A stretch of DNA of 64,000 bases, taken from NCBI RefSeq assembly GCF_963378085.1, contig NZ_OY726395.1, positions 3,286,001-3,350,000 on the forward strand. The letters run 5' to 3'. The position numbers and the translations under genes are program-made. The stretch is from Mycolicibacterium sp. MU0050. Lineage in GTDB: Bacteria; Actinomycetota; Actinomycetes; Mycobacteriales; Mycobacteriaceae. This document shows positions 1,488-59,296 of the stretch, one piece after another (position 1 is the first letter of the stretch; each line of letters opens with the position of its first letter). The notes under the pieces are model-generated. The model worked only from the letters and a program-made list of their open reading frames with translations. It was not told where the DNA came from and did no database searches.

Positions 1488-2390
1488 TCAGGACGCCTGC
1501 TGCACCGACTTCGCCGGCCGCCAGCCAAGCCCGGGATTGGCCGTCAGGTGGTCGATCAACAGCTCGGTCGACATGGTCGGCGACAACTGACTGACGACGT
1601 GCCAGGGCCGGCTGATCGGCGTGCCATGCACGGCGATCTCGACCAGATCGCCGCCGTCGAGTTCGCGCAGCACCGCCTGCCGGGACACCAGCGTGACGCC
1701 CAGCCCGGCCACCGCGGCCGCGACCACCGCGCCGTGCGAACCCAACACGAGCTGCGGCGGCGTCACCTCCAGATCCTCGAGCAGCGCCATCAGGGTGGAC
1801 CGGGTACCCGACCCGGTCTCGCGCAACAGCCAGGTTGCGGTGGCCGGGTCGATCCCCTTGGCGAGCGCCGGGGCGCCGACGACGACCAGGGTGTTCGGGC
1901 TCACGGCCCGCATTCGCACCTTCCGGCGCAGATCCTCGGGCGGGCGGCCGGCGACTACCAGATCGACTTCGTGTCGCGCCAGCATGGGCCAGACCAGGCT
2001 GCGGGAAGCGACCTCGAGGTGCAGTACGACTCCGGGATACCTGGTCCGGAAGGAAGCCAGCGCTGCCGGGATGAGCAGCTCGCCGGCCGACGTGACGGCC
2101 GCCAACCGCACCGATCCGTGCTCCGGATCCGCTTCGCCGCGGGCGGCCAGGATCGCCTCGTCGTGCAGGCCGAGAATCCGGCGCGCGTACTCGACGTACC
2201 GCTCCCCGGCCGGGGTGAGCCGCACCCCACGGCCGTGCCGGTCCACCAGGGCTATCCCGATGTCGTTGCTCAGCGCGCGCAGCGCCGACGAGATCGAGGA
2301 TTCGGTCACCACCAGGCGCTCCGCGGCACCGCGAACCGAGCCGGTTTCGGCGAGCTCGACCAGCGCACGCAGCCGCGCGTTGGTGGTCAT
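1488..2390 (-). CDS. cbbR: LysR family regulator, probable CbbR of the RuBisCO operon
   Basis: 300 residues with an N-terminal LysR winged helix (residues about 1-60, including [20 protein letters not shown]) and a C-terminal periplasmic-binding-like effector domain. The ATG overlaps the cbbX stop (ATGA, 2387-2390), so it is translationally coupled as the last gene of cbbL-cbbS-cbbX-cbbR. CbbR proteins activate Calvin-cycle operons in response to metabolites such as RuBP, PEP or NADPH. The assignment as CbbR rests on family plus context. It is odd that the gene is co-directional and distal, because cbbR is usually divergent from the operon it controls. Here it would be autoregulated if it acts on cbbL. 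Confidence 0.8.
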
Positions 2391-3418
2391 CGGCGCCCTC
2401 CTGCCACGGTGTCGACGGGATCGGTACCGAACACCCGGCTCGCCAGAATATCGGCCGGCTCGATGGTGGAAAGCCCGGCCAAACCGACATCGCCCCCGGT
2501 TGCGAGCAGACGTCGGGCGTGCCGAAGCCGGGCCCGCTCCAGTGCATTGCGCACGCTGCGCGCATTCGCAAACCAGGGTTGGTCGATCCGCAACTCGAGA
2601 TACCGGCGTAAGACCTCGCGGGCCTCATCGGAGAACCGATAGCCCAACTCGTCGGTCATCAACAGCGCGATGTCCTCCAGCTCGCCGACGGCGTAGTCGG
2701 GGAAGGTGATGTGGTGGGCGATCCGGCTCTGCATTCCGGGATTGGCCGAGAAGAACTGATCCATCTTGTCCGCATAGCCAGCCAGAATCACCACCAGGTC
2801 AGCACGATGGTTCTCCATCACCTGAAGCAGAATCTCGATCGATTCCGACCCGTAGTCGCGGTCATTCTCCACCTTGTACAAGTAGTAGGCCTCGTCGATG
2901 AACAGCACGCCACCCATCGCACGCTTGATGACTTCCTTGGTCTTCGGAGCGGTATGCCCGACGTACTCCCCGACCAGATCATCGCGAGTCACGCTGACCA
3001 AGTGGCCACGCCGCAGATACCCCAGCCGGTGCAGCAGATCGGCCATCCGCAGCGCCACGGTGGTCTTGCCCGTCCCGGGGTTCCCGGTGAAGCACATGTG
3101 CAGCGTTGGCTGGGGCGCATTGACCCCGAAGCGGGCCCGCATCCGGTCGACGAGCAGCAGCGCGGCGATTTCGGCGATCCGGGTTTTCACCGGCTCCAAT
3201 CCCACCAGTTCGCGATCGAGTCCGGCCAGTACGTCATCGACGCCCGAATCCTTCCGTGCGGCGGCAATGTCGACGACCGCGCCCGGGGGCAGCAGGTCCT
3301 CCGCGGGCACGTCCGGTTCCCCGTCCAGCTGCGGACCGGGGGCCGGACGTGGCCGGTACCCGAATGAGCTGCGCGGGTTCTCGGCGGATTGCGGCTTATT
3401 TGGTGTCTGCAATGTCAT
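2387..3418 (-). CDS. cbbX: CbbX, AAA+ RuBisCO activase
   Basis: 343 residues with an AAA+ core: Walker [10 protein letters not shown], Walker [11 protein letters not shown], and a downstream arginine-rich region. CbbX of red-type form I RuBisCO uses ATP to thread the C-terminus of the large subunit and release inhibitory sugar phosphates, with RuBP as allosteric ligand. The first ~60 residues form a Pro-rich, low-complexity extension before the conserved core, longer than in proteobacterial CbbX. The gene begins 3 bases after the cbbS stop and its own stop overlaps cbbR, so the four genes form one operon. Confidence 0.93.
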
Positions 3419-3421
3419 CGG

Positions 3422-3847
3422 TCAGTCCGATCGGTACCGGTCCCCCTCGGGACGTTCGGTGGCATACGAATGCGTGGTGTACCCGATCTGGCGGTTGGCC
3501 CGCTCGGCGCGGTCGAGCCGGAAGCCGGGCTCCTCGGCGGGCCGGTTGACGATGAACGACAGCGCCGTCGTCTGTCGGCCCAGGCTCGCGTCATACGCGT
3601 TCAGCCGGATGTAGCTGTTCGGGTTCGCCGATCGACACGCGTTGACCTCCAGCAGCACGCCGGCCGGATCCTTGAGGTCGAACATCGGCAGACCCCACAT
3701 CTCCCAGTAGGTGTTGCGTGGATGGGGGTCGTCGGTGAACTCGACCGACAGCGGCCACTCATTGGACAGTGCGTATTTGATCTGTGCGGTGATCTCCTCA
3801 TCGGTGAAATCGGGCAGGTACGAGAAGGTGCCCTGGGTGATTCGCAT
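3422..3847 (-). CDS. cbbS: RuBisCO small subunit, form I
   Basis: 141 residues that fit the RbcS fold: an N-terminal [12 protein letters not shown], then [17 protein letters not shown] and a C-terminal extension ending near RPEGDRY. That extension is typical of red-type (form IC/ID/IE) small subunits, where it forms a beta-hairpin in the central channel. It assembles as L8S8 with CbbL. It lies 18 bases downstream of cbbL, with a ribosome binding site (AAAGGAG, at 3854-3860) just before the ATG. Confidence 0.95.
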
Positions 3848-3865
3848 GTGTGAGCTCCTTTCGTG

Positions 3866-5465
<1,600 letters not shown>

Positions 5466-6464
5466 ATGAGTACGTGTAACGAGACCGCGGCCGCCATGAC
5501 CATGCCCGGCAAGGGCATCCTTGCCGCCGACGAGAGCATCAGCACCATGTCGACGCGACTCGAGCAGGTGGGTGTGGTGCCGACCGCCGAGAGCCGCCGC
5601 GACTATCGCGAGCTGTTGGTGACCACGGCCGATCTGGCGACGGGGGTATCGGGCGTCATCCTGTGCGAGGAGACCCTGGGACAGGTGTTCAGCGACGGCC
5701 GACATTTCCCCGAGGCGATCCGGACGCTCGGCATCCTGCCGGGCATCAAGGTCGATACCGGGGCCAAACCGTGCCCGGGCCTGCCGGGAGAAACCATCAC
5801 CGAGGGGCTGGACGGGCTGCCTGCCCGACTGGCCGGCTACGCCGAGGCGGGAGCGGTGTTCGCCAAATGGCGCGCGGTATTCACGATCACCGAGGAAAGA
5901 CCCAGCTGGGGCGCCATCGCGGCGAACTCCAGTGCGCTGGCCCGGTATGCCGCGGCGTGTCAGGAGGCCGACCTGGTTCCGATTGTCGAACCGGAAGTCC
6001 TGATGTCGGGTGAACACAGCCTCGAGCGCTGCGCCGAAGTCACGGCGAGCGTGCATGCCGCGGTACGCCAGCAACTCCGCGCGATGAACGTGGACCTGGC
6101 CGGGATTGTGCTCAAGCCCAACATGGTGATCGAGGGCGAGGATCATCCGGTCCGGGCCACCCCGGAACAGGTGGCCGAGGCCACCGTCGCCGTGCTCCGG
6201 GCCTGGCCGGCCGAGCTGGCCGGGGTGGCGTTCCTCTCTGGCGGGCAGGAGCCCGAGCGGGCCACCGCCAACCTCGCGGCGATGCAGAGCCACAACACGC
6301 CGTGGCCGCTGACGTTCTCGTTCGGCCGAGCGCTGGTGTCGCCGGCGCTGGCGGCCTGGCACGGTGACGAAGGCTTGGTCGAGGCCGGACAGCGGGCGCT
6401 GGCCAGTCATGTCGCGGCGAACGCCAACGCGCTCCGGGGCCGCGAGAGGCTTCAACCGGCGTGA
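5466..6464 (+). CDS. cbbA: Fructose-bisphosphate aldolase, class I
   Basis: 332 residues. GKGILAADES near residue 16, the Schiff-base motif GIVLKPNMV, and GVAFLSGGQ are hallmarks of class I (metal-independent) aldolase. It joins DHAP with GAP or erythrose-4-phosphate in the Calvin cycle. The ATG at 5466 follows AGGACAGGAG. The frame is open upstream but without a better start. Most cbb operons carry a class II aldolase, so a class I enzyme here is notable. The gene diverges from cbbL, and its 3' end overlaps the convergent histidine kinase by 13 bp. The symbol is assigned by context. Confidence 0.93.
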   Translation: MSTCNETAAAMTMPGKGILAADESISTMSTRLEQVGVVPTAESRRDYRELLVTTADLATGVSGVILCEETLGQVFSDGRHFPEAIRTLGILPGIKVDTGAKPCPGLPGETITEGLDGLPARLAGYAEAGAVFAKWRAVFTITEERPSWGAIAANSSALARYAAACQEADLVPIVEPEVLMSGEHSLERCAEVTASVHAAVRQQLRAMNVDLAGIVLKPNMVIEGEDHPVRATPEQVAEATVAVLRAWPAELAGVAFLSGGQEPERATANLAAMQSHNTPWPLTFSFGRALVSPALAAWHGDEGLVEAGQRALASHVAANANALRGRERLQPA

Positions 6465-7657
6465 TCGGCGGCCGCGTCGACCGGCACGGTCACCGTGACC
6501 GTGGTGCCCCAACCAGGGCGGGAACGGACCGATAGCTGGCCGCCGACCAGCTCGGCGCGCTCACTCATCGACAGCATGCCGTAGCTGGTCGGAGCGCGGT
6601 CCGGTGCTGGATCGAAACCGACGCCGTTATCGCTGACCTCTAGGCGCGCCGTGCCGCCATCGTCGACCTCGAACCACACCTTGGCCGTCATGGCCCGCGC
6701 ATGCTTGACCACGTTCTGCAGACACTCTTGCGCAATGCGGTACAGCGCCACCTCGACGTGTTCGGGCAATCGCCGGTCGGCCAGCTCGAGGTCCAGATCG
6801 ATTTCGGGTATCGACGAAGCCAGACTGGCCAGCCCGCCGACCAGACCGAGATCGTCCAGCACCGGCGGGCGCAGCCCACCGATCGCCGCGCGCGCCTCGG
6901 CCAGCGTCAGATCCACCAAATCGCGGGCCTTCTCCAACTGTTCGGCGGCCTCGGGTCCGTCGGATGCGCCGACCGCCCGCGCCGCCGCATCGAGTCGGTA
7001 CGTCAGGCTCACCAGCCGTTGCGAGATCCCGTCATGAATATCGCCTGCCAACCGGCGCCGCTCGGATTCCTGTGCGGCAATCACCTGTTCGGCGAAGTTC
7101 TCGTGAGCCCGCTCGCGGGCCGCGACCTGGCGGTGCATCCGGGCCTGGTCGAGCGCACCGGCAAGCAGCCTTCCGATCGCGAGCAACAACTCGATGTCCC
7201 GACCTGTGAAGTCATGCCGGGCAACGGTGTGCACGTTCAGCACACCAACCAACCCACCGAGTTCGGTCTGCATCGGTACCGAGGCCATCGAGGTGAAGTC
7301 CGAACCACGCAGCGACGCGATCGGCACATAGCGCGAATCCTCGTCCTTGTTGTCGGTGATCACCACGGGCGCACGATGACTGGCCACCCAGCCGGACACG
7401 CCCTCGCCCAGCGGCATGGTGATCAGACCGACCTGTTCGTCGAACGGGGGCGTCGCACCCGCAAGGGTGAGCGAGCGTCCGGAATCGTCCAGCACGTGCA
7501 CGAAGCACACGTCGGAAGCGGTGACCGAAGTGATCAGCTCCGCGACGGCCGCAGCCAGTGACTCGACTCCCGGGCCGCTCGAGGTGGCCGCAACGATGCC
7601 AAGCAATAGCTCGACCTCGCGATCCTCATCGACCAACCCATGGACCAGGCCGGTCAC
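6452..7657 (-). CDS. GAF-domain sensor histidine kinase (HisKA_3 / NarL type)
   Basis: 401 residues: a GAF domain (about 20-165), a dimerisation helix with the phosphoacceptor His in RRRLAGDIHDGISQRL, and a C-terminal HATPase domain (DNGVGFD, SYGMLSMSERAELVGG). It has no transmembrane segment, so it should sense a cytosolic or diffusible signal such as redox, O2 or a small molecule. The GAF domain is of the kind found in DosS-like kinases, but a haem-binding site cannot be shown. Its ATG overlaps the response-regulator stop by 4 bp. Its place inside the cbb cluster suggests it regulates Calvin or hydrogenase genes. Confidence 0.9.
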   Translation of the reverse strand: MTGLVHGLVDEDREVELLLGIVAATSSGPGVESLAAAVAELITSVTASDVCFVHVLDDSGRSLTLAGATPPFDEQVGLITMPLGEGVSGWVASHRAPVVITDNKDEDSRYVPIASLRGSDFTSMASVPMQTELGGLVGVLNVHTVARHDFTGRDIELLLAIGRLLAGALDQARMHRQVAARERAHENFAEQVIAAQESERRRLAGDIHDGISQRLVSLTYRLDAAARAVGASDGPEAAEQLEKARDLVDLTLAEARAAIGGLRPPVLDDLGLVGGLASLASSIPEIDLDLELADRRLPEHVEVALYRIAQECLQNVVKHARAMTAKVWFEVDDGGTARLEVSDNGVGFDPAPDRAPTSYGMLSMSERAELVGGQLSVRSRPGWGTTVTVTVPVDAAADHAG

Positions 7658-8325
7658 TGGTAGATGCCTTCACGTAGCGCGGTGGCGACCGCGGCGGTGC
7701 GGTCACCGACGCCCAACTTTCGGTAGATGGAGCGCAGGTGGCTCTTGACCGTCTCGTCACCGATCACGAGTTTGCCTGCGATACCGCGATTCGACAGCCC
7801 GGCGACCACGAACGCGAGGATCTCGCTCTCCCGCTGGGTCAACCCGTGCCGCGCGCCCGGCCAGAACTCGTCCCGTTGCAACCGCGCCGCGGTATCGGCC
7901 GCCCGGGCTGCCAGTCCGGCGTCGATGGCGGTCGAACCGGCCTGCACATACTCGAGCTGACGAACCAATTCGTCGCTGCTGATGCCTTTCAGCAGATACC
8001 CCGACGCACCCGCTCGCAGTGCCTGGAACAGGTACTGCTCATCTTCGTACACCGAGAGCAGAACCACTTTGCGGTCCGGGTCCCGTTCCCGAATCGTGCG
8101 GCACAGATCCAGACCGCTGGCCCCCTGCATGCGTACATCGCAGAGCACGATATCGGGCTGAAGGCTGGCGATGACGCCCAGCGCATTCTCCGCTCCGACG
8201 GCCTCACCGACGACACGGACACGATTCTTGAACGACGCCAACATCGCCTTGAGTCCCTCGATGATCATTTCGTGATCATCGACCAGTACCACCCGCACCG
8301 GAACTGCCGCCGTTGCCGCCGTCAT
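7654..8325 (-). CDS. LuxR/NarL-family response regulator
   Basis: 223 residues from the ATG at 8323-8325. The receiver domain has VVLVDDHEM, the phosphoacceptor Asp in DIVLCDVRM, and the conserved KG of GYLLKGIS. The C-terminal LuxR helix-turn-helix reads LTQRESEILAFVVAGLSNRG through VKSHLRSIYRKLGV. It pairs with the downstream GAF kinase (ATGA overlap) and diverges from rpe with ~160 bp between, which is where it could bind. The target genes are inferred, not shown. Confidence 0.92.
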   Translation of the reverse strand: MTAATAAVPVRVVLVDDHEMIIEGLKAMLASFKNRVRVVGEAVGAENALGVIASLQPDIVLCDVRMQGASGLDLCRTIRERDPDRKVVLLSVYEDEQYLFQALRAGASGYLLKGISSDELVRQLEYVQAGSTAIDAGLAARAADTAARLQRDEFWPGARHGLTQRESEILAFVVAGLSNRGIAGKLVIGDETVKSHLRSIYRKLGVGDRTAAVATALREGIYQ

Positions 8326-8488
8326 GTGTTCACCATAAACGCGACAGCAAGGAACCGTACGAAGAATTCCTGGCAGGTCACCGACCGCACAATTGGGGAA
8401 CAACCTTCGATTCCCCCACTCGGGGGAGTCGCCAACGGGCATACCGTCATAGCGTCGTGAGGCATCCAGCCCTCAGGAGGTTCTGCTC

Positions 8489-9184
8489 GTGACATCTCCC
8501 CCCGCGACCCTGGTCGCATCCGTACTGCCTGCGGATTTCGCCGAACTCGGCCGCGACGTCACCGCGATCGCGGATGCCGGAATCGACCGGATCCAATGGG
8601 ATGTGATGGACGGTGTGTTCGTCCCGAACATGACCTTCGGACCCGATGTCATCGCCGCCTGCAGGGACCGGGTGGACATCGGCTTCGAAGCCCATCTGAT
8701 GGTCGACGATCCCGATCCCATGTTGGCGCGCTGGGTCGAGGCCGGGTGCGAGATCGTCATTGTGCACGCCGAGACATGTCGGCATCTTCATCGAACCCTT
8801 TGCGCCATCGAGGATCTCGGCGCCAAGGCAGGAGTCGCGATCAACCCGGCAACCCCACTGTGCGCCGTGGCCGATGTACTCGACCGCACCGATCTGTTGC
8901 TCGTGATGACGGTGAATCCCGGCTTCGGCGGCCAACGGTACCTGGCCAGCATGGAATCCAAGATCGCCGCGGCCAGAACGGAAATCGATCGACGCGGGCT
9001 TCCCATCGAACTCGAGGTCGATGGCGGCATCGGCACGGCGACCATCGGTCGTGCGGCGCGGGCCGGCGCCGACACATTCTGTGCCGGGTCGGCCCTGTTC
9101 AGCAACTCATCCACCATGTCCGAGCAGGCGGCCGCACTGCGCGCCGCGGCCGGCGAACAGACCGGAAGGCTCGTCGCAGGATGA
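8489..9184 (+). CDS. rpe: Ribulose-phosphate 3-epimerase
   Basis: 231 residues with RPE signatures: VASVLPADF, the catalytic stretch QWDVMDGVFVPNMTFGP, FEAHLMVDDP, MTVNPGFGGQ and ELEVDGGI. It interconverts xylulose-5-phosphate and ribulose-5-phosphate, supplying the substrate of phosphoribulokinase. The GTG at 8489 has a perfect AGGAGG 8 bases upstream. The stop overlaps the transketolase ATG, so rpe-tkt are coupled. Its place in the cluster marks it as the Calvin-cycle copy (cbbE); a housekeeping copy probably exists elsewhere. Confidence 0.95.
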   Translation: MTSPPATLVASVLPADFAELGRDVTAIADAGIDRIQWDVMDGVFVPNMTFGPDVIAACRDRVDIGFEAHLMVDDPDPMLARWVEAGCEIVIVHAETCRHLHRTLCAIEDLGAKAGVAINPATPLCAVADVLDRTDLLLVMTVNPGFGGQRYLASMESKIAAARTEIDRRGLPIELEVDGGIGTATIGRAARAGADTFCAGSALFSNSSTMSEQAAALRAAAGEQTGRLVAG

Positions 9185-11235: not shown

Positions 11236-11250
11236 GCCTCGGGCGGATTC

Positions 11251-12195
11251 GTGGTTCGCGGCAAACTGGTCCGATTCCTCGACAATCACCGGGGATCTCG
11301 TCGGCGGCCGGTGATGCTCGCGATTGCCGGGGACAGCGCCTCGGGCAAGAGTACGGTCGCCGCGGGATTGGTCAACACGCTGGGGCCGCATCGGTGCCTG
11401 TCCATCTCGACCGACGATTACCACCGCTTCGATCGGCTCGAACGCTCGCTCAACGGGATGACTCCCCTGCACCCGGACTGCAATCACCTCGACATCCTCG
11501 GCCAGCACCTACAGTTGCTCGCCACCGGGCAGTCCGTCCTCAAACCGGTATACGACCACGCCAGCGGGCGGTTGCTGCGTCCTGTCGTGGTAGATCCCGC
11601 CGACTACATCATTGTCGAGGGCCTGCTGCCGTTGCACACCAATCTGTGCCGCGCGTGTTTCGACCTCGCCGTGTATCTCGATCCGGATGACAACGTCCGT
11701 CGGGACTGGAAGACCCAGCGCGACTGCGCGTCTCGCGGGTACACCCCCGATCAGGTGCTGACCGAACTTGCCGACCGGGAGTCCGACGCGCAGCAATTCG
11801 TATTGCCGCAGCGGGCATTCGCCGACCTGGTGGTGCGGTTCGCACCCATCGAGCAGCGCAACGACCCGCCGGATACGCCGCTGTCGGCGACCCTGCTGCT
11901 GCGACCCAACATTCCCCAACCCGATCTCACCTCGGTGCTGCGGCCCGAGATCACCGCCACCATGCACATGGGTCTGGCCAACGATCACGACGGGCGCCCG
12001 GTGGACAGCCTGCACGTGCACGGCTACGTCGATCCCGAGGAGTCCGCGCGGGCAGAGAAGCTGCTCTGGCGAGCGCTCACCGAGGACCGGCTCGAGATGA
12101 CCGACGCGCTCGGTGCGATCGCCGGTGGTCACAGCACCCCGTTGGCGGTGACCCAGATGATGCTGCTGTTCCATCTGCTCAAGGCGACGCGATGA
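11251..12195 (+). CDS. cbbP: Phosphoribulokinase
   Basis: 314 residues. A P-loop (IAGDSASGKSTVAAG) lies near the N-terminus, followed by STDDYHRFDR and a Walker-B-like VDPADYIIVEGLLPLH. It phosphorylates ribulose-5-phosphate to RuBP with ATP, the reaction specific to the Calvin cycle. The length fits class I bacterial PRK (about 290-320 residues). The GTG start at 11251 lies 15 bases after tkt. The stop overlaps an ATG (12192) of a possible small ORF leading to hypA. Confidence 0.94.
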   Translation: MVRGKLVRFLDNHRGSRRRPVMLAIAGDSASGKSTVAAGLVNTLGPHRCLSISTDDYHRFDRLERSLNGMTPLHPDCNHLDILGQHLQLLATGQSVLKPVYDHASGRLLRPVVVDPADYIIVEGLLPLHTNLCRACFDLAVYLDPDDNVRRDWKTQRDCASRGYTPDQVLTELADRESDAQQFVLPQRAFADLVVRFAPIEQRNDPPDTPLSATLLLRPNIPQPDLTSVLRPEITATMHMGLANDHDGRPVDSLHVHGYVDPEESARAEKLLWRALTEDRLEMTDALGAIAGGHSTPLAVTQMMLLFHLLKATR

Positions 12196-12377
12196 CCCGA
12201 GCCGCGCTGAACTCCGGCATCCTCGACGTCGGCGCGCGTTCAGACGAGCTGGCCGTGCAAGATTCGGCTGTCGGTTTACCAGCGCCACCGCTGCTCGCCG
12301 TCCAATGCCGCGCCATCCACCAACATTGCTGGTCGAAAGCTCGGCGACTACGTCCTCCTCAAGGCAACATGGGGTAA
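12192..12377 (+). CDS. Possible small ORF bridging prk and hypA
   Basis: A 61-codon frame whose ATG overlaps the phosphoribulokinase TGA (ATGA) and whose TAA overlaps the hypA ATG (TAATG). The first ~21 codons end almost always in G or C, as in real genes here; the rest do not. I recognise no family. It may be a truncated or decaying gene, or simply a frame that couples translation of prk to hypA. The arrangement is seen directly; protein-coding status is uncertain. Confidence 0.3.
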   Translation: MTRAALNSGILDVGARSDELAVQDSAVGLPAPPLLAVQCRAIHQHCWSKARRLRPPQGNMG

Positions 12378-12712
12378 TGCACGAACTATCGCTGTGTCAC
12401 GCCATCGCCGGGGTGGTCAAATCGCATACCGCCGGTCGGCAGGTCGATGTCGTGCGGGTCCAAGTCGGCGCCCTGCGCCAGGTGGTGCCCGAATCGCTGG
12501 AGTTCTGCTGGACGTTGGTACGAAGCCATGAGGACATGCCCGAAGCCGAACTCGAACTCGAACTGGTCCCCGCCGAAGTGCGCTGCGGCCAATGCGGACA
12601 CCGCGGGGGGCTCGAATCACGCTGGGCGGTGTGCTGTTCTCGATGTCGGAGCGGCGAAGTCGAGGTACTGCGCGGCAATGAGTTTCTGGTGACGTCACTC
12701 GACGTCACGTGA
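12377..12712 (+). CDS. hypA: HypA, hydrogenase nickel metallochaperone
   Basis: 111 residues. It starts MHELSLCHAI, with the N-terminal Met-His that binds Ni, and carries a zinc site of two CxxC pairs (CGQC and CSRC) in the C-terminal half. HypA works with HypB to insert Ni into the hydrogenase large subunit. The ATG overlaps the preceding TAA, and the stop overlaps the frame that contains hypB. It matches family length. Confidence 0.95.
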   Translation: MHELSLCHAIAGVVKSHTAGRQVDVVRVQVGALRQVVPESLEFCWTLVRSHEDMPEAELELELVPAEVRCGQCGHRGGLESRWAVCCSRCRSGEVEVLRGNEFLVTSLDVT

Positions 12713-12726
12713 CGAAAGGTCTCACT

Positions 12727-13527
12727 ATGGGTCGATTCCACCGCCACGATGACGGTACGGTGCACGATCACGAACATCACGGGCACGACGGGCACGACGG
12801 GCACGACGGGCACGACGGGCACGACGGGCACGACCACGGCGACCATAGCGGATACGGAACCGGCGCCCAACGCGTGGAGGTGCTCGAATCGATCTTCGCC
12901 GAGAACGACATCCGCGCCGGCATCAACCGCGATCTCCTCGAGGCGAACGGGATCCGCGCCCTGAATCTGATGAGCTCCCCGGGTTCCGGGAAGACCACCG
13001 TGCTGGCGTCCACGCTGGACACCCTGGCCGCCGAGATGGGTATCGGCGTGATCGAGGGCGATATCGCGACCGACCTCGACGCCGCCAAACTGAGTGGTCG
13101 CGGCGCACAGGTATCGTTGCTCAACACCAACAACGGCTTCGGCGGCGAATGCCACCTGGACGCCCCGATGGTAAACCGCGCGCTGGCGGGACTCCGGCTG
13201 TCCGAGCTGGACCTGCTGGTCATCGAGAATGTCGGAAACTTGGTCTGCCCCGCCGAGTTCGACGTTGGCGAACACGCCAAGGCCATGGTCTACTCGGTCA
13301 CCGAGGGTGACGACAAGCCCTTGAAGTACCCGGTGATGTTCCGCGCCGTCGACTTGGTGCTGCTCAACAAGACCGACCTGGTGCCGCACCTCGACATCGA
13401 TGTCGGCGATTACATCGCGAGTATTCGCGCGGTCAACCCCGCGGCGACCATCCTGCCGGTCAGCGCCCGGACCGGCGATGGAATGTCAGCGTGGTACGAC
13501 TGGGTGCGCAGTTTTGTCGCCGGATAG
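12727..13527 (+). CDS. hypB: HypB, hydrogenase nickel incorporation GTPase
   Basis: 266 residues from the ATG at 12727; a GTG at 12709 overlapping the hypA stop is an alternative. The N-terminus is a His/Asp-rich tail (six GHD triplets plus flanking His, residues about 4-46) of the type that stores Ni or Zn. The GTPase domain follows: SSPGSGKTT (P-loop), EGDIATDLDA, ENVGNLVCPAEFD (metal-binding Cys) and NKTDLV. It delivers Ni to apo-HhyL after HypCDEF installs Fe(CN)2CO. It is the last gene before a short gap. Confidence 0.96.
   Translation: MGRFHRHDDGTVHDHEHHGHDGHDGHDGHDGHDGHDHGDHSGYGTGAQRVEVLESIFAENDIRAGINRDLLEANGIRALNLMSSPGSGKTTVLASTLDTLAAEMGIGVIEGDIATDLDAAKLSGRGAQVSLLNTNNGFGGECHLDAPMVNRALAGLRLSELDLLVIENVGNLVCPAEFDVGEHAKAMVYSVTEGDDKPLKYPVMFRAVDLVLLNKTDLVPHLDIDVGDYIASIRAVNPAATILPVSARTGDGMSAWYDWVRSFVAG
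12781..12834 (+). repeat. Six perfect 9-bp tandem repeats in hypB
   Basis: GGGCACGAC occurs six times without a mismatch, each copy encoding Gly-His-Asp in the Ni-storage tail of HypB. The lack of synonymous drift suggests recent expansion or ongoing slippage that changes the length in 3-residue steps while keeping frame. Confidence 0.95.
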
Positions 13528-13530
13528 CAC

Positions 13531-13830
13531 TCAGGAGAAGCGCAGCTGGCGCCCACCGCGCTCGGCGGCACGTTTGATCAAGCTCGCGGCAATCTCGGCG
13601 CGACTCCGAGTACGGTGCGAGGCGATGCGCTTGCGCACCACGCCGTCGGCGAAAATTACGACGATGTCCACCGCCCATTGACCGCACTCCTCGACCACGA
13701 AGGTTTCGACTCCATGGGCTTCATCGGCGCAGCTCTCAGGACGCACCGCCGTTGGCCGAGCCTTCCACTCTGCCACCCCTTCGCAGGCGCACTCGCGGAT
13801 TGACTGGGACATCTGAAATCCACTGCTCAT
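13531..13830 (-). CDS. Conserved mycobacterial hypothetical protein
   Basis: About 99 residues; the start could be the ATG at 13840-13842, 13828-13830 or 13810-13812. The C-terminal half (ETFVVEECGQWAVDIVVIFA, then a basic helix ending near LIKRAAERGG) looks like a real folded unit and resembles a small protein common in mycobacteria. The function is unknown. It is transcribed against hypB (3-bp gap) and divergently from hhyS. It is probably not part of hydrogenase maturation. Confidence 0.6.
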   Translation of the reverse strand: MSSGFQMSQSIRECACEGVAEWKARPTAVRPESCADEAHGVETFVVEECGQWAVDIVVIFADGVVRKRIASHRTRSRAEIAASLIKRAAERGGRQLRFS

Positions 13831-13862
13831 CGGCAAAAGCATGTCGAAGGAACCGCCATAAG

Positions 13863-13881
13863 TGAGGGCTACCTAACCTAA
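13863..13881 (-). promoter_or_regulatory. Degenerate IdeR/DtxR-like box
   Basis: Read on the minus strand this begins with a perfect half-site TTAGGTTAGG and matches the 19-bp iron-box consensus at about 14 of 19 positions; the second half is poor. It lies upstream of the minus-strand hypothetical gene. It may be a weak iron-dependent operator or chance. Confidence 0.2.
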
Positions 13882-13923
13882 CTATTCGAAACTGGCCGCT
13901 CCTGACCTCGCCTCGGCCAAACT

Positions 13924-13939
13924 TGTGATTGACATCACA
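13924..13939. promoter_or_regulatory. Perfect CRP-type site upstream of hhyS
   Basis: TGTGATTGACATCACA matches the CRP/FNR-family consensus TGTGA-N6-TCACA exactly. It is centred about 105 bp before the hhyS ATG. A TTGACA (13929-13934) lies inside it, with a weak -10-like TAGACC 16 bases on. Mycobacterial CRP homologues bind this consensus and group 1h hydrogenase is known to be induced by energy limitation, so cAMP-CRP control of the hydrogenase operon is likely. That regulatory role is an inference. Confidence 0.65.
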
Positions 13940-14036
13940 TGCTTGCCGGGTAGACCCTGGACTAACGCCGCGCAAGTGGGCCGACGGTCGACTCCGGCGG
14001 CGCAGGGGCTCCAGCCCAGCCCCGGGAAGCTGCAGC

Positions 14037-15092: not shown

Positions 15093-15143
15093 GTGCCGCG
15101 TCGACCAACTGCCCGATGGACAACTCGAATAGAAGGCACCAAG

Positions 15144-16940
15144 ATGACAACCATCATCCCCGAGCCGTCACAGATGAAGAACGTGCCGGGCCAACTCGTC
15201 GAGATGGCCTGGGATCCGATCACCCGGATCGTCGGCAGCCTCGGCATCTATACCAAGATCGACTTCGAGAGCCGCCAAGTCGTCGAATGCCACAGCACCT
15301 CGTCGATCTTCCGCGGCTACTCGATCTTCATGAAGGGCAAGGACCCTCGCGACGCGCATTTCATCACGAGCCGCATCTGCGGTATCTGCGGCGACAATCA
15401 CGCCACCTGCTCCTGCTACGCGCAGAACATGGCCTACGGCGTCAAGCCGCCGCATCTGGGCGAGTGGCTGATCAACCTTGGCGAGGCCGCCGAGTACATG
15501 TTCGACCACAATATCTTCCAGGAGAATCTGGTCGGGGTCGACTACTGCGAGAGGATGGTCTCGGAGACGAACCCCAGCGTGCTCAAGAACGCCGAGAACA
15601 CTGCGGCGCCCCACGCAGATGCCCACGGTCACAAGACAATCGCCGATATCATGCGAGCCCTCAACCCGTTCTCCGGCGAGTTCTACCGAGAGGCGCTGCA
15701 GGTCAGCCGCTATACCCGGGAAATGTTCTGCCTGATGGAGGGCCGGCACGTCCACCCGTCCACCCTCTATCCCGGCGGCATCGGAACCACCGCCACCATC
15801 CAGTTGATGACCGATTACATGACCCGGCTGATGCGCTACGTCGAGTTCATGAAGAAGGTCGTGCCCATGCACGACGATCTGTTCGACTTCTTCTACGACG
15901 CGGTTCCCGGCTACGAGCAGGTCGGCCTGCGGCGCACGCTGCTCGGATGCTGGGGCAGCTTCCAGGACCCCGAGGTATGCAACTTCGACTACAAGGACAT
16001 GGAGCGCTGGGGCAGGGCGATGTTCGTGACACCGGGCGTGGTGGTGGACGACAAGCTGGTGACGACCTCGCTGGTCGACATCAACCTGGGCATCCGGATC
16101 CTGTTGGGCAGTTCGTATTACGACGACTGGACCGATCAGGAGATGTTCGTGCAACGCGATCCGTTGGGCAACCCGGTCGACCGCCGGCATCCATGGAACC
16201 AACACACCAATCCGCGGCCACAAAAGCGCGATATGGAAGACAAATACAGCTGGGTGATGTCCCCTCGCTGGTTCGACGGCAAGGATCACCTCGCCCTCGA
16301 CACCGGCGGTGGACCGCTTGCGAGGCTGTGGACAACGGCGCTTGCCGGGCTGGTCGACATCGGCTACGTGCAGTCGACGGGTCACAGCGTGAAGATCAAC
16401 CTACCCAAGACCGCGCTGAAGGGACCCGTCGAGCTGGAGTGGAACATTCCCGAGCACGGCAGCAACACGCTCGAGCGCAACCGGGCCCGGACCTACTTCC
16501 AGGCCTATGCCGCTGCGGCCGCACTGCATTTCGCGGAGAAGGCGCTCGTGGAGATCCGCGCCGGGCGTACCAAGACCTGGGAGAAGTTCGAGGTGCCCGA
16601 GGCGGGCATCGGCTGTGGCTTCACCGAGGCCGTCCGCGGCGTGCTGAGTCACCACATGGTGATCCGGGACGGCAAGATCGCCAACTACCACCCCTATCCA
16701 CCCACGCCGTGGAACGCCAACCCGCGGGACAGTTACGGAACGGCTGGGCCCTACGAAGATGCCGTCGCCGGCAGTCCCATCTTCGAAGAGAACGACCGCG
16801 AGCACTTCAAGGGCATCGACATCATGCGTACCGTGCGCAGTTTCGATCCGTGTCTGCCGTGCGGTGTGCACATGTACCTCGGGGAGGGCAAAACCCTGCA
16901 GAGACTGCATTCACCGACGCAGACGGCCACCGGGGAGTAG
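15144..16940 (+). CDS. hhyL: Group 1h [NiFe]-hydrogenase large subunit (HhyL)
   Basis: 598 residues. The L1 motif SRICGICGDNH supplies Cys79 and Cys82, and the L2 motif DPCLPCGVH supplies Cys570 and Cys573, the four NiFe ligands. A 22-residue tail follows His576 and should be removed by the maturation protease encoded at 20.6 kb. DPCLPCGVH with a long tail is characteristic of group 1h (formerly group 5), the hydrogenases that scavenge atmospheric H2 in actinobacteria. The ATG at 15144 follows AGAAGG. Confidence 0.96.
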   Translation: MTTIIPEPSQMKNVPGQLVEMAWDPITRIVGSLGIYTKIDFESRQVVECHSTSSIFRGYSIFMKGKDPRDAHFITSRICGICGDNHATCSCYAQNMAYGVKPPHLGEWLINLGEAAEYMFDHNIFQENLVGVDYCERMVSETNPSVLKNAENTAAPHADAHGHKTIADIMRALNPFSGEFYREALQVSRYTREMFCLMEGRHVHPSTLYPGGIGTTATIQLMTDYMTRLMRYVEFMKKVVPMHDDLFDFFYDAVPGYEQVGLRRTLLGCWGSFQDPEVCNFDYKDMERWGRAMFVTPGVVVDDKLVTTSLVDINLGIRILLGSSYYDDWTDQEMFVQRDPLGNPVDRRHPWNQHTNPRPQKRDMEDKYSWVMSPRWFDGKDHLALDTGGGPLARLWTTALAGLVDIGYVQSTGHSVKINLPKTALKGPVELEWNIPEHGSNTLERNRARTYFQAYAAAAALHFAEKALVEIRAGRTKTWEKFEVPEAGIGCGFTEAVRGVLSHHMVIRDGKIANYHPYPPTPWNANPRDSYGTAGPYEDAVAGSPIFEENDREHFKGIDIMRTVRSFDPCLPCGVHMYLGEGKTLQRLHSPTQTATGE

Positions 16941-16943
16941 GAC

Positions 16944-17879
16944 ATGACCGGCCGCGCCAGTCCCCCGGGTGATGACGGCCGGTGGCGTACGGCCGGTGAC
17001 CGCATCGAGACCCTGCTCGATGCCGCCGGCACCGGGACGGGCGGCCCCCGGGGGCGGGAGCGTGCCGAACAACTCGTCCGCGAGGTCGTCGAACTCTACG
17101 GTGAAGCGCTGCAGCGCATCGTGGCGATGGCCGAGGATCACCACCTGGAGCAGCTGGCCGAGGACGATCTGGTCGCCAGCCTGCTCCTGGTGCACGGCCT
17201 ACACCCGCACGACCTGAGGCGTCGGATCTCGGATGCATTGGACCGGGTCCGCCCGTACCTCGGGTCACACGGCGGGGATGTGGATCTCCTCGAGATCACC
17301 TCGGGACCCGAGGGTGCCACCGTGCGGCTCCGCTTCACCGGCAGCTGCAAGAGCTGTCCATCCTCGGCGATCACCCTCGAGTTGGCCGTCGAGGATGCCG
17401 TCCGGGCCGCCGCCCCCGAGGTGACCGCCATCGAAGTGGTTGCCGCGCCGGACAGTCCCTCCGAGCCCGCCGCGGCGGTGATTCCCGCCGAATCCCTGCT
17501 GGGCCGGGTGCGCGCACATCCGACCCGGACGTCCTGGCACCCCGTTCCCGACATCGCGGATCTGGCCCCCGGCGAGGTCGGCGGATTCGACGTGGGTCCT
17601 TACGTCGTGCTGGCCTGCCTTATCGGAGACAACCTCTACGCCTACCGGGACCACTGCCCATCATGTGATGACTCCATGGCCGGGGCGGTCCTGCACCGCG
17701 TCCTGGGATCACGCGACCCGGTGCTGCGCTGTCCGCACTGCGGCGCCCATTACGACGTCGTGCATGCCGGAGCGGGCCTGGCGGAAACAACCGGGCACCT
17801 CGAGCCGCTGCCGCTGCTGGTTCGTGACGGGGTGCTATCGCTGGCCATGGACGTCGCGCCCACCGGGGTCTCAGCATGA
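16944..17879 (+). CDS. NifU-domain protein with C-terminal Rieske-like domain
   Basis: 311 residues, starting 3 bases after hhyL. Residues ~95-160 are a NifU C-terminal domain with GSCKSCPSS (Cys135, Cys138). Residues ~195-300 align with Rieske ferredoxins, but the ligand pattern is CPSC (238-241) and CPHC (263-266), so both canonical His ligands are replaced. That gives a four-Cys site, closer to rubredoxin or a zinc ribbon. Such a NifU/Rieske gene regularly follows hhyL. A role in electron transfer or cluster delivery to the hydrogenase is inferred. Confidence 0.85.
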   Translation: MTGRASPPGDDGRWRTAGDRIETLLDAAGTGTGGPRGRERAEQLVREVVELYGEALQRIVAMAEDHHLEQLAEDDLVASLLLVHGLHPHDLRRRISDALDRVRPYLGSHGGDVDLLEITSGPEGATVRLRFTGSCKSCPSSAITLELAVEDAVRAAAPEVTAIEVVAAPDSPSEPAAAVIPAESLLGRVRAHPTRTSWHPVPDIADLAPGEVGGFDVGPYVVLACLIGDNLYAYRDHCPSCDDSMAGAVLHRVLGSRDPVLRCPHCGAHYDVVHAGAGLAETTGHLEPLPLLVRDGVLSLAMDVAPTGVSA

Positions 17880-18499
17880 GTGGACCGTATGACGTGTTGT
17901 CGCGCATCACTTCCCGCCGTCCTCAACCGGTAGCCGGCGAGCGCTGCGAGATGTGCGCCGAAGATATCGGCGACCACCATCAACACGTGGTCGATGTCGT
18001 TGGCCGCCAACTGATGTGCGTATGCCGCGGATGCTATCTGCTGTTCACCGACAGCCGGGCGGACCTGCGCTACCGGGCCGTACCGGACCGGTTTCTGTCG
18101 TTCCCGGAGTTCACCGTGGACCGCCATGCCTGGAGCGCACTGCAAATCCCTGTCGAGGTCGCCTTCTTCTTCCGCAACTCGGCATTGGACCGGGTTGTCG
18201 CGTTCTATCCGGGCGCGGCCGGGGCATGTGAATCCGAGTTGGAACTCGACCTGTGGGATGCGGTCACGGCCGGGGACGACCGGAGCGCATTGCTCGCCGA
18301 CGATGTCGAAGCGCTGCTGATCCGGATGCCCGAAATCGGGACACCGCAATGCTTTCTGCTCCCGATCGACACCTGTTACGAATTCGTCGGCGGGCTGCGT
18401 TCGTTATGGCGCGGCTTCGACGGCGGCACCGACGTCCACGCATTCATCGACGGGTTCTTCGGCACGATCGGCGAGCGGGCCAAGGAGGTTCCACCGTGA
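17876..18499 (+). CDS. DUF5947-like hydrogenase-associated protein
   Basis: 207 residues. Two CxxC pairs near the N-terminus (Cys24/Cys27 and Cys50/Cys53) suggest a zinc or iron site. The rest is globular with no membrane segment. It resembles DUF5947, a family I know only from group 1h hydrogenase operons. The ATG overlaps the previous stop and its own stop overlaps the next GTG. The function is unknown; a dedicated assembly or electron-transfer factor for HhySL is plausible. Confidence 0.75.
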   Translation: MSGPYDVLSRITSRRPQPVAGERCEMCAEDIGDHHQHVVDVVGRQLMCVCRGCYLLFTDSRADLRYRAVPDRFLSFPEFTVDRHAWSALQIPVEVAFFFRNSALDRVVAFYPGAAGACESELELDLWDAVTAGDDRSALLADDVEALLIRMPEIGTPQCFLLPIDTCYEFVGGLRSLWRGFDGGTDVHAFIDGFFGTIGERAKEVPP

Positions 18500-19134
18500 G
18501 CGATCTGACGTTCACCGTGGTCAACGTCGAGCCGGAACCCTATGCGGCGACGCCGGTGCTGGCGGCGCACATCGCAGTGTCGGCGCGCACCGAGGACCCC
18601 GTCCACGCGATCGCATTGCGCTGCCAGGTGCGTATCGAACCGCTGCGGCGCGGATACTCCGACGCCGAGGCCGCGGGACTGCTCGATCTGTTCGGCCCAC
18701 GATCGCGCTGGGCCCAAACCCAGCAGACCTTCCTGTGGCAGCAGGCCGCCACGATGGTGCCCGGATTCACCGGCACGGCCACCGTCGACCTACCGTTGGA
18801 GTGCACCTACGACTTCGAGGTCTCTGCGTCGAAGTATCTGCACGCGCTGCGCGACGGATCGCTGCCGCTGCAGTTCCTGTTCAGCGGAACTGTTTTTCGC
18901 AAGGGTGCCAACGGATTATGGGTGCAGCAGGTGCCCTGGGACCGCGACGCCCGCTACGATCTGCCGGTATCGGTGTGGCGCGAGCTGATCGACACGCACT
19001 ATCCGAGCCTGGGTTGGGTGCGGCTGAGCCACGACACCATCGCCGCCCTGGCCGCGTACAGGTCGCGACGCGGTCTACTGGGCCTCGACGACGCGCTGGC
19101 CAGCTTGTTGCCGTTGCCGGAGGACGTGCCGTGA
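18496..19134 (+). CDS. DUF6084-like hydrogenase-associated protein
   Basis: 212 residues from the GTG at 18496, which overlaps the preceding stop and has AAGGAGG about 8 bases upstream. It begins SDLTFTVVNVEPEPYAATP and contains beta-rich sequence and PRSRWAQTQQTFLWQQ, with no signal peptide and no Cys motif. It resembles DUF6084 from actinobacterial hydrogenase clusters. The function is unknown. The tight coupling says it is needed in fixed ratio with its neighbours. Confidence 0.75.
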   Translation: MSDLTFTVVNVEPEPYAATPVLAAHIAVSARTEDPVHAIALRCQVRIEPLRRGYSDAEAAGLLDLFGPRSRWAQTQQTFLWQQAATMVPGFTGTATVDLPLECTYDFEVSASKYLHALRDGSLPLQFLFSGTVFRKGANGLWVQQVPWDRDARYDLPVSVWRELIDTHYPSLGWVRLSHDTIAALAAYRSRRGLLGLDDALASLLPLPEDVP

Positions 19135-20468
19135 GCGTCGACAGCACCGTGATGGACCGGGCCCGCGCAGTAGCCGACGCGGTGCTCTACGAGGGCTACC
19201 TGCTCTATCCATACCGCGCCACGTCGAGCAAGAACCAGGCGCGTTGGCAGTTCGGTGTGCTCGGCCCGCCCGGCGCTGAGCGCGCGGGTCTCGGCGAGAA
19301 CTCCTCGATGTCGGCGCAATTGCTCGTCCGCGACGCCACCGGGCTCCGACTGATGGTGCGGTTCCTGCATCTGCAGCACCGCCGTGCCGAACGCGCACTG
19401 GAGTCGGGCGGATACCGACTGGTCGACGAACTCAGCACACCGACGGGCTCCTGGATGACCTGGGATGAAGCCGTCGAAACGGAGCTTCACTACGGCCCCT
19501 GGGATTTCAGTGATTCCCAACGTTGCTTTCCGGTCTCCGCGCCCGCGGCCACCGATATCGAGGAGCTGACCGGCGGCCGACTGGTGCGGGAGCGGCGCTG
19601 CGTCCACGGACTGCTGGACGTCACCGTCGAAGTCGCGGGAGCCGTCGACCGGGTCACCGTGACCGTCCACAACACCGGTGCCCCCGCAGTCGACCGCCAC
19701 GACGCGATCGCCCGGTCGATGATCGGCACCCATGTCATCCTCGAAACCGTGTCGGGCGGCTTCGTGTCGCTACTCGACCCCTCCGCTGACGCCCTGGTGG
19801 CGGCGCGCGGCTGCGAGCGCCACCGCTGTTTCCCGGTGCTGGCCGGACCACCCGGCTGCGATGAGCTGGCGCTGATCTCACCGATCATCCTCTACGACCA
19901 CCCCGAGATTGCCGAGGCGAGTCGAGGCGAACTCTTCGACGCAACGGAGATCGACGAGATCCTGACGCTGCGGGTGATGACGATGACCGACGAAGAGAAG
20001 AACCAAGCTCGGGCCACCGATCCACGTGCCGCTCGCATCATCGATCAGTGTGACGGCATGTCCGCCGAGGCGATGTTGGACCTGCACGGCATCTTGCGCA
20101 ATCCGCACGCCGACCGACATTGTCGGCCGGCCGGACTGATCCCGGAGATACCCGACGGTGTGCAGTGGTGGGACCCGTTGGCCGACAACGCCGTTGCCCC
20201 GGAGACAGACGGCGTCCTGATCAGCGGCGTGCGGGTGGCACGCGGCAGCAGAGTCCGGCTGCGACCGGTCCGACGCGCGGATGCCCAGGACATGTTCGTC
20301 GCCGGAAAAACGGCCCGGGTCACCTCGGTGCACGAAGACGTCGACGGCGAGAAGCATGTCGGCGTGGTCGTCGAGGACGATCCGGGCGCGCCCCTTCGTG
20401 AAAGTTACGGTCGCCACCTGTATTTCTCCCCCGACGAGATCGAACCCTTGCCGGAGACCGAACCCTAG
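19131..20468 (+). CDS. Conserved hydrogenase-cluster protein of unknown function
   Basis: 445 residues from the GTG at 19131, overlapping the previous stop (GTGA). No domain is recognised with confidence. Visible parts: a beta-rich N-terminal ~250 residues with ELHYGPWDFSDSQRCFPVSA and a CERHRCFPVLAG segment, a central helical stretch (MTDEEKNQARATDPRAARII), and a C-terminal small beta domain with RGSRVRLRPVRRADAQDMFV, which could bind RNA or protein. No signal or membrane segment. Homologues sit at this place in other hhy operons. Confidence 0.75.
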   Translation: MSVDSTVMDRARAVADAVLYEGYLLYPYRATSSKNQARWQFGVLGPPGAERAGLGENSSMSAQLLVRDATGLRLMVRFLHLQHRRAERALESGGYRLVDELSTPTGSWMTWDEAVETELHYGPWDFSDSQRCFPVSAPAATDIEELTGGRLVRERRCVHGLLDVTVEVAGAVDRVTVTVHNTGAPAVDRHDAIARSMIGTHVILETVSGGFVSLLDPSADALVAARGCERHRCFPVLAGPPGCDELALISPIILYDHPEIAEASRGELFDATEIDEILTLRVMTMTDEEKNQARATDPRAARIIDQCDGMSAEAMLDLHGILRNPHADRHCRPAGLIPEIPDGVQWWDPLADNAVAPETDGVLISGVRVARGSRVRLRPVRRADAQDMFVAGKTARVTSVHEDVDGEKHVGVVVEDDPGAPLRESYGRHLYFSPDEIEPLPETEP

Positions 20469-20487
20469 ATCCCGAAAGGAGCTTCTC

Positions 20488-20607
20488 ATGGACGTAGTTG
20501 GGTGGACCGCCACCGCGGTGGTCGCATTGGTACTACTGGCGGCTGCGGCGGTCGGAGTGCGGTCGATTCCAGATATCCGGCGTTACCTGAAGATGCGACA
20601 GATGTAG
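20488..20607 (+). CDS. 39-aa single-span membrane peptide (DUF6893-like)
   Basis: An ATG at 20488 follows GAAAGGAGC at a good distance. The peptide has one hydrophobic helix (residues about 5-24, VALVLLAAAAVGV) followed by a basic tail RSIPDIRRYLKMRQM, so it should sit in the membrane with the C-terminus inside. Similar tiny proteins are annotated as DUF6893 in hhy operons. A membrane anchor for the otherwise soluble HhySL complex is an attractive but unproven role. Confidence 0.75.
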   Translation: MDVVGWTATAVVALVLLAAAAVGVRSIPDIRRYLKMRQM

Positions 20608-20611
20608 ATCG

Positions 20612-21103
20612 GTGGCGGTACGCATCCTCGTTGCCGGGATCGGCAACATCTTTCTCGGCGACGACGGCTTCGGCCCCGAGGTGATTCAACACGTCGTCGT
20701 CGACAATCCCGATGTGTGCGTCGTCGATTACGGTATCCGCGGCATGCACCTGGCCTACGACCTGCTGTACGGCTGCGGCATCCTGGTGCTCGTCGATGCG
20801 CTCCCGGACCGGGGTGCCCCCGGACAGGTGCGGGTCTTCGAGGTCGATCGCGAATCGCCTGAGACGGTGCCGATGCTGGACGCCCACGGGATGGATCCCG
20901 CCGCGGTGTTCGCCAGCCTCCGAGCACTCGGCGGCAGCCCGCCACGCACCATCGTGGTCGGCTGCCAGGTACAGGCCGTCGCCGAGGGGATCGGTCTGTC
21001 CGATCCGGTCCGCGGCGCGGTTCCCGGTGCGGTGCAGGCAGTCGAGACCACCGTGGCGTCGTTGCTGGTATCCGGCGGCGCGCTGTCGGGGAGCGCGGAC
21101 TGA
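20612..21103 (+). CDS. Hydrogenase maturation protease (HyaD/HycI family)
   Basis: 163 residues, GTG start 4 bases after the membrane peptide. The N-terminal GIGNIFLGDDGFGPEV is the family signature and includes the first Ni-sensing Asp; VDYGIRGMHLAYDL supplies the second acidic or metal-binding region. It cleaves the C-terminal tail of HhyL once Ni is inserted. The stop overlaps the hypC ATG (TGATG). Confidence 0.93.
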   Translation: MAVRILVAGIGNIFLGDDGFGPEVIQHVVVDNPDVCVVDYGIRGMHLAYDLLYGCGILVLVDALPDRGAPGQVRVFEVDRESPETVPMLDAHGMDPAAVFASLRALGGSPPRTIVVGCQVQAVAEGIGLSDPVRGAVPGAVQAVETTVASLLVSGGALSGSAD

Positions 21104-21348
21104 TGTGCCTTGGCATTCCCGGCCAGGTGGTTCGGCTACTCGACGGGTATTCCGGTCAGCTCGCACTCGTCGATGTCGCCGGTGAGCATCGCAAGGTGAA
21201 CATCGGCATGCTGCCCGACCAATCGTTGGCCCCGGGTGACTGGGTCATCATCCACATGGGCTTCGTCATGGAGCGGACCGACGCCGCCGGTGCCGCCCAA
21301 GCGATGGCAGGACTGGAAATCATCGGACGCGGCGAAGCCCCGCCGTAA
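21103..21348 (+). CDS. hypC: HypC, hydrogenase maturation chaperone
   Basis: 81 residues starting MCLGIPGQV; the Cys2 of this motif is the essential HypC residue that holds Fe(CN)2CO with HypD and docks on the large subunit. It is translationally coupled to the protease gene and closes the hydrogenase run. HypD, HypE and HypF, its obligatory partners, are not encoded in this window. Confidence 0.95.
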   Translation: MCLGIPGQVVRLLDGYSGQLALVDVAGEHRKVNIGMLPDQSLAPGDWVIIHMGFVMERTDAAGAAQAMAGLEIIGRGEAPP

Positions 21349-59290: not shown

Positions 59291-59296
59291 CTACTG

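Follow-up and report, generated by a model that had tools for sequence, protein, structure and literature searches.

Autotrophic growth of mycobacteria on H2 and the co-occurrence of ribulose-1,5-bisphosphate carboxylase/oxygenase (RuBisCO) with group 1h NiFe hydrogenases are already published. H2 autotrophy goes back to a 1974 study of Mycobacterium gordonae (as cited in PMC7563442), growth on H2 has been described for Mycolicibacterium JCM 16229, and a table of the same paper assigns the RuBisCO of 7 of the 7 Mycobacteriales strains analysed to form IE, all seven carrying H2-oxidation genes (PMC12999727). Form IE RuBisCO and group 1h enzymes occur together in cultured Actinobacteriota including Mycobacteriales (PMC9561532), and further prior art on the topic is found in PMC7784904. 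The group 2a hydrogenase Huc of M. smegmatis reduces menaquinone directly, has a sub-atmospheric affinity for H2 and tolerates O2 (PMC10017518); Huc supports mixotrophic growth, and the group 1h enzyme Hhy supports persistence (PMC13098282). The locus presented here was found in Mycolicibacterium sp. MU0050, in a stretch of 64,000 nucleotides (the window; NZ_OY726395.1, positions 3,286,001 to 3,350,000, or G000:C1:3286001-3350000) of a 5.22 Mb genome in two contigs. An earlier note, made from the letters of this stretch, had described positions 1488 to 21348 as a compact and transferable ~20-kb block in which a group 1h hydrogenase would fund the Calvin cycle.

The system is real, partly known and larger than first noted. 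Form I RuBisCO, aldolase, epimerase, transketolase, phosphoribulokinase (PRK), hypAB and the group 1h genes are all present in the order that had been given, with open frames, but a kinase/regulator pair (6452-8442) and an antisense gene (13531-13842) had been passed over. The unit does not start at 1488: the left edge of the window cuts an island of ~55 kb, which runs ~34 kb further left, to about C1:3252100, so that the window holds its right third. A second NiFe large subunit, HucL, is encoded 1.5 kb left of the window in a cluster of hucM, hucS, hucL and genes for a protease, a TPR protein, a NifU-Rieske protein and an NHL protein; these are followed by hypF, hypC, a SIS protein gene, hypE, hypC, hypD, a DUF6390 gene, nuoA-N, a second PRK gene and the fructose-1,6-bisphosphatase (FBPase) gene. 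HucL is nearest to the solved Huc of M. smegmatis (7uus_A, 1085 bits; 7utd_A, 1081 bits) and is accompanied by a small subunit (HucS, assigned by Pfam and position) and the HucM adapter, as expected of group 2a; the cluster differs from that of M. smegmatis in its linkage to RuBisCO and complex I. The complex I set is complete, including the NADH module NuoEFG, and of the NADH-linked NDH-1 type (subunits A, B, C, E, F, G, H, I (Fer4), J, K, L and N were recognised by Pfam, D and M through the annotated set of a plasmid described below). For the Calvin cycle, the check covered and found cbbLS, two PRK genes and the genes for FBPase, fructose-bisphosphate aldolase, transketolase and ribulose-phosphate epimerase. 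The G+C content at third codon positions is 0.80 in both the cbb-huc-nuo block and the hhy part, compared with 0.87-0.88 in the flanks.

We consider it probable, at roughly 0.6, that this island serves aerobic H2-driven CO2 fixation by core Calvin cycle genes and Huc, with complex I supplying NADH in reverse. The first line of evidence is genomic linkage in a sample of 396 genomes of the genus, 54 of which gave a RuBisCO match; after removal of two with matches of 33-35% identity (G281, G391), 52 remained. All 54 were searched for HhyL and NuoC. HucL positions were taken from cross-hits, and in the genomes that a full-length HucL search covered, its matches coincide with these positions. In 45 of the 52 genomes HucL is encoded no more than 25 kb from CbbL (within 10 kb in 36), and on the same side in 45/45, whereas HhyL keeps to the 25-kb limit in 4/52 only: G000, its sister G261, G277 and G040. 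The conserved cbb partner in mycobacteria is thus Huc and not Hhy. G040 is the one other hucL-positive genome among them; its assembly is fragmented, and one contig joins hucS to a partial cbbL. Presence and absence were tabulated for 392 genomes, without the cbbL-positive genome G395, giving 51 cbbL-positive and 341 cbbL-negative genomes; HucL is found in 101 of them, 45/51 with cbbL vs 56/341 without (Fisher p ~2e-24, uncorrected for kinship).

The second line of evidence is the complex I. With a strict cut-off, NuoC was found in 382/392 genomes and, counting copies by eye from the result table, in two copies in 24; all of these carry RuBisCO (24/51 cbbL-positive vs 0/341 cbbL-negative genomes, Fisher p 2e-24). 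In 24/52 genomes a NuoC is encoded at most 25 kb from CbbL, and in 23 of the 24 two-copy genomes one NuoC is linked to cbbL at this distance, the exception being G032, in which the contigs differ; G175 has a single copy, which is cbbL-linked. To our knowledge, the supply of NADH for CO2 fixation from quinone-reducing hydrogenases is an unsettled step of atmospheric chemosynthesis, and a complex I copy restricted to the RuBisCO carriers of the sample is a concrete, deletable candidate for it. The account in PMC9561532 centres on groups 1h, 1l and 1m, with group 2a treated briefly, whereas the linked enzyme of MU0050 is of group 2a; a term count in its accessible text returned 0 for "NADH" and 0 for "reverse electron".

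The conserved core consists of the Calvin cycle genes and the air-affinity Huc, joined in about half of the loci by the second complex I and, in G000 and its sister, by the second air-affinity hydrogenase Hhy adjoining the block. In the mechanism that we propose, Huc (and Hhy in starved cells, which presumably feeds the quinone as well) would oxidise H2 and reduce menaquinone, and respiration of menaquinol would yield proton-motive force and ATP. The potential of NAD+ lies far below that of menaquinone, so that NADH from menaquinone-level electrons needs an energy input. This step was missing from the mechanism of the earlier note, which named no route to NAD(P)H although both hydrogenases would be quinone-reducing. 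Complex I of the island, driven backwards by the proton-motive force, is the parsimonious route and probably the NADH source, and RuBisCO and PRK would then fix the CO2. Both hydrogenases would rely on a single hyp set, the parts of which stand at opposite ends of the island: the hhy operon, which had been called full, contains no hypD, hypE or hypF, the single hypD of the genome lies 13 kb left of the window at the Huc end, and the one hypB above its family cut-off lies at the Hhy end, so that maturation is probably shared. A link between H2 and CO2 is plausible here, and the island would be expressed for autotrophic or mixotrophic growth. H2 autotrophy, the physiology predicted here, is described for other mycobacteria in PMC7563442 and PMC12999727, the accessible text of which gives no gene cluster.

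Several observations weigh against this reading. Huc is not confined to RuBisCO carriers, its presence in 56/341 RuBisCO-less genomes pointing to uses without cbb, and 6/52 cbbL-positive genomes lack HucL (in these, CbbL shares 71-79% identity with the query). Among the 10 genomes without a NuoC match, six are cbbL-positive (G040, G042, G143, G212, G314, G389), which argues that complex I is not obligatory, and in the clusters of G109, G006 and G030 (L129, L133, L150) NuoL and NuoM are the only complex I subunits found. A tree of NuoC plus NuoD (34 rows, two G155 rows being unlabelled) rejects the linked complex I as one clade, since its well-supported branches require no fewer than 7 changes of label. 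The conserved promoter elements listed below differ between the hydrogenase and cbb operons, a CRP-type box being found at the former and not at cbbL. In an order-wide sample with CbbL in 19/298 genomes, 14 of them outside the genus, Huc or Hhy was found in 0/14 of these (fetched stretches of 3-37 kb, some of 3-4 kb), which makes the Huc link mycobacterial in this sample. The genome also encodes a form I CoxL with the AYACSFR motif (G000:C1:4167088-4169367, L235), which makes CO a rival source of electrons. Outside the genus, nuo genes stand beside cbb in two genomes of the same family (G451, G585), with a divergent set in G427, so complex I beside RuBisCO also occurs there.

The tree bears as well on the origin of the linked complex I. 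The linked copy of G000 groups with the core copy of the same genome (97/93), that of G055 with its own (100/100), and the two copies of G185 are almost identical; repeated capture and gene conversion would fit this topology equally well. The RuBisCO might instead be an electron or carbon sink in heterotrophic or mixotrophic growth, with the second complex I running forward for extra energy; in favour of this, a role as redox sink is known for the Calvin cycle in other bacteria, and some linked complex I sets group with or nearly equal the host's own. We regard this as unlikely, since a spare copy running forward would not be expected solely in RuBisCO carriers.

The version of the earlier note, a single block of ~20 kb with the group 1h enzyme as the specific source of electrons for the Calvin cycle at atmospheric H2 levels, is somewhat less likely still. 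Its claim that H2 oxidation and cbb belong together is supported, but its choice of partner is not. In favour of it, HhyL and CbbL are at most 25 kb apart in MU0050 and three other genomes and at most 50 kb apart in 7/52, the plasmid described below carries both hydrogenases with HhyL ~52 kb from CbbL, and the sole hypB is on the hhy side. On the other hand, hhyL is present in 40/52 RuBisCO-positive genomes and nevertheless close to cbbL in just four, no cbb genes were found near hhyS in the 80 nearest named loci (of 588 relatives) over a span of 10 kb at most, with several contigs ending sooner, and in G009 the same site is occupied by hhy with no cbb. The comparison of gene order in other mycobacteria, which had been suggested as a check, shows a recurrent hydrogenase-cbb linkage but leaves hhy-cbb adjacency as a rare and apparently derived nesting; as a general mycobacterial state it is rejected. 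Counting group 1h hydrogenases beside RuBisCO may consequently indicate the wrong enzyme in mycobacteria. Equally improbable is CO as the main donor, with hydrogenases kept for persistence and a merely historical gene linkage, since the coxL mentioned above lies ~0.86 Mb from the island whereas Huc is cbb-linked in 45/52 genomes, even though carboxydotrophy is known from Mycobacterium JC1. Growth of mycobacteria on CO has been reported (PMC7563442).

The proposal of H2-driven CO2 fixation by Huc and the Calvin cycle gains a further dimension from plasmids. In PLSDB, CbbL matches 119 records, HhyL 12 and HucL 36, and the single Mycobacterium record in each list is the identical one, NZ_CP012886.2, a plasmid of 437,571 bp from M. 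intracellulare subsp. chimaera AH16, isolated from sputum and typed as mobilizable (MOBP). A region of ~72 kb is annotated with a nickel transporter, two PRKs, tkt, two rpe, a histidine kinase and response regulator (HK/RR) pair, two class I aldolases, cbbLSX, hyp genes, huc, phosphoglycerate kinase (PGK), glyceraldehyde-3-phosphate dehydrogenase (GAPDH), FBPase, nuoA-N and hhy. Identities to MU0050 (CbbL 93.7%, HhyL 87.8%, HucL 86.5%) and the differing gene order identify this set as a relative and not the donor. The transferability claimed before gains support: an autotrophy gene set can be carried by a plasmid, in this case that of an isolate from sputum. The megaplasmid of C. necator H16 and the plasmid of Afipia carboxidovorans likewise carry hydrogenase or RuBisCO genes; the mycobacterial plasmid differs from them in combining Huc and Hhy with a complex I of its own, and C. 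necator possesses an NAD-reducing hydrogenase as well. The plasmid is mentioned in the AH16 genome paper, in which a term search returned no "hydrogenase", "ribulose" or "carbon fix" (PMC5122679). Literature searches, mostly at title level and in open-access text, returned no recognised cbb-huc-nuo cluster or plasmid-borne set in mycobacteria. As far as searched, Huc as the conserved partner, the limitation of two complex I copies to the RuBisCO carriers of the sample and the plasmid relative are new. One may tentatively envisage a mobile mycobacterial lithoautotrophy kit of Calvin cycle, Huc, sometimes Hhy and a reverse-running complex I, able to reside on plasmids, with the linked complex I recruited or recopied from the host several times; if so, such a kit would turn a heterotroph into a CO2 fixer on trace H2.

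On the chromosome two arrangements recur. The mapped loci of type A (G000, G261, G277, G004, G109, G124, G006, G009, G322, G030, G354) have the order [FBPase-PRK]-nuo-huc-AraC-cbb-aldolase-HK/RR-rpe-tkt, some of them lacking genes or running beyond the mapped stretch at one end; NuoL and NuoM of G109, G006 and G030, 68-75% identical to those of the island, stand beside PRK and FBPase. Type B (G012, G300, G251, G185, G360) has the order huc-AraC-hypAB-FBPase-PRK-cbb-aldolase-nuo, and is resembled by G082, in which nuoF is the sole nuo gene found. G262 (L157) retains the huc cluster, AraC, the histidine kinase and a partial aldolase with no cbbRXSL between AraC and the aldolase piece, which looks like a natural loss of RuBisCO. 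Five cbbL-negative relatives have the flanking core genes of the island near one another: the left gene and the methyltransferase are 2.6-5.4 kb apart, start to start, in G019, G011, G020 and G013, compared with 62.8 kb in G000, and in G018, where the methyltransferase was not found, the distance to the next gene on the right is 6.1 kb. G009 has hyp-hhy at the island site of G000 without cbb, its FBPase-to-PRK genes lying more than 50 kb to the left, and for this reason the hhy-cbb adjacency looks derived; in a metagenome-assembled genome (L082) hypAB-hhyS stands against the left flank. The simplest reading is that the cbb-huc-nuo block entered an hhy locus in the ancestor of G000 and G261. 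The marks of an integrative element were not found in the parts scanned: Pfam recognised no recombinase in the 17 flank genes analysed, there is no tRNA in C1:3230001-3287600 (the sole tRNA of the window is at 59296), and the longest exact repeat shared by the compared edge stretches has 13 bases, with no att-like repeat.

The part of the island inside the window comprises the following genes.

1..239, minus strand: hucM-like gene (5' portion), for the membrane adapter of the group 2a hydrogenase; DUF1641, 148 bits to 7uus_Q, the Huc membrane-associated subunit; start codon uncertain
224..1483, plus strand: AraC-type regulator, kept beside huc in other loci; start codon uncertain
1488..2390, minus strand: cbbR, LysR regulator; best match NF045990 (CbbR), under its cut-off
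2387..3418, minus strand: cbbX, Rubisco activase; TIGR02880 above cut-off
3422..3847, minus strand: cbbS; PF00101
3866..5317, minus strand: cbbL, form I RuBisCO large subunit; Protein Data Bank (PDB) match and active-site motifs
5415..6464, plus strand: fbaB, class I fructose-bisphosphate aldolase; NF033379 above cut-off
6452..7657, minus strand: sensor histidine kinase, assigned to the GAF type because its plasmid counterpart is so annotated; in most type A loci
7654..8442, minus strand: NarL-type response regulator; also in other type A loci
8489..9184, plus strand: rpe; PF00834
9181..11235, plus strand: tkt; PF00456, PF02779 and PF22613 on the enclosing frame, and translation
11251..12195, plus strand: phosphoribulokinase a; PF00485
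12305..12712, plus strand: hypA; best match TIGR00100, under cut-off
12709..13527, plus strand: hypB, the genome's sole copy above the family cut-off
13531..13842, minus strand: small antisense gene between hypB and hhyS; paralogue of a huc-operon protein, 55% over 69 amino acids
14037..15092, plus strand: hhyS, group 1h small subunit; family match and relatives
15144..16940, plus strand: hhyL, group 1h large subunit; 5aa5_C
16944..17879, plus strand: NifU-domain protein; PF01106
17876..18499, plus strand: DUF5947 protein; PF19372
18496..19134, plus strand: DUF6084-type hhy accessory protein, named via its plasmid counterpart; in 77/80 hhy loci
19131..20468, plus strand: hhy accessory protein, no function assigned; in 76/80 hhy loci
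20488..20607, plus strand: hydrophobic small protein of 39 amino acids; open frame and comparison of hhy loci
20612..21103, plus strand: hydrogenase maturation protease; TIGR00072 above cut-off
21103..21348, plus strand: hypC; PF01455

CbbL finds its best PDB match in 1bwv (815 bits), which we take to be the red-type RuBisCO of Galdieria, and keeps the KDDE and GKLEGDP motifs; judged by these matches it is nearest to red-type form I enzymes, and CbbX is also present. The best solved relative of HhyL is 5aa5_C (1063 bits), presumably the group 1h enzyme of R. eutropha, and together with the conserved accessory genes this places Hhy in group 1h. The N- and C-terminal CxxC pairs are intact in both HhyL and HucL. 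The nearest named hhyS is that of M. palauense (93%), in which the small antisense gene is also present (L009). The gene order hhyS-hhyL-nifU-DUF5947-...-hypC is found in most of the 80 named loci and corresponds to that of actinobacterial hhy operons, the operon of MU0050 differing by its place beside cbb and by the lack of hypDEF. NCBIfam gave no or only weak matches for several accessory proteins. A counterpart of the sensor kinase also adjoins hhy in M. rhodesiae JS60.

Candidate regulatory elements were located at four places in the window.

225..240, minus strand: CRP-type box TGTGA-N6-CCACA in the divergent hucM/AraC promoter region; in 11/11 aligned type A loci
5326..5334, plus strand: element CTGTCTATC in the divergent cbbL/fbaB promoter; 11-locus alignment
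8412..8427, unstranded: inverted repeat TCCCCC-N4-GGGGGA upstream of rpe; one further perfect copy at C1:3252495
13924..13939, unstranded: palindromic CRP-type box TGTGATTGACATCACA upstream of hhyS; motif scan

The CRP-type box has only these two sites in the window, both in hydrogenase promoter regions (three strand hits vs 0.14 expected), and with at most one mismatch within 300 bp it occurs at 21/80 hhyS loci as a raw count. At the cbbL/fbaB promoter, CTGTCTAT is retained in nearly all of the 11 aligned loci. This distribution suggests closer co-regulation between the two hydrogenases than between either of them and cbb. An operator common to all operons of the island was considered; the CRP-type box stands at both hydrogenase promoters and not at cbbL. 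Crp1 and Crp2 of M. smegmatis do not bind the huc promoter (PMC13098282). The single window match of TCCCCC-N4-GGGGGA is within chance. At the left edge of the island, a SulP-type transporter (C1:3250353-3251984, L007) may carry sulfate or bicarbonate, and a small adjoining gene reads like an ArsR-type regulator.

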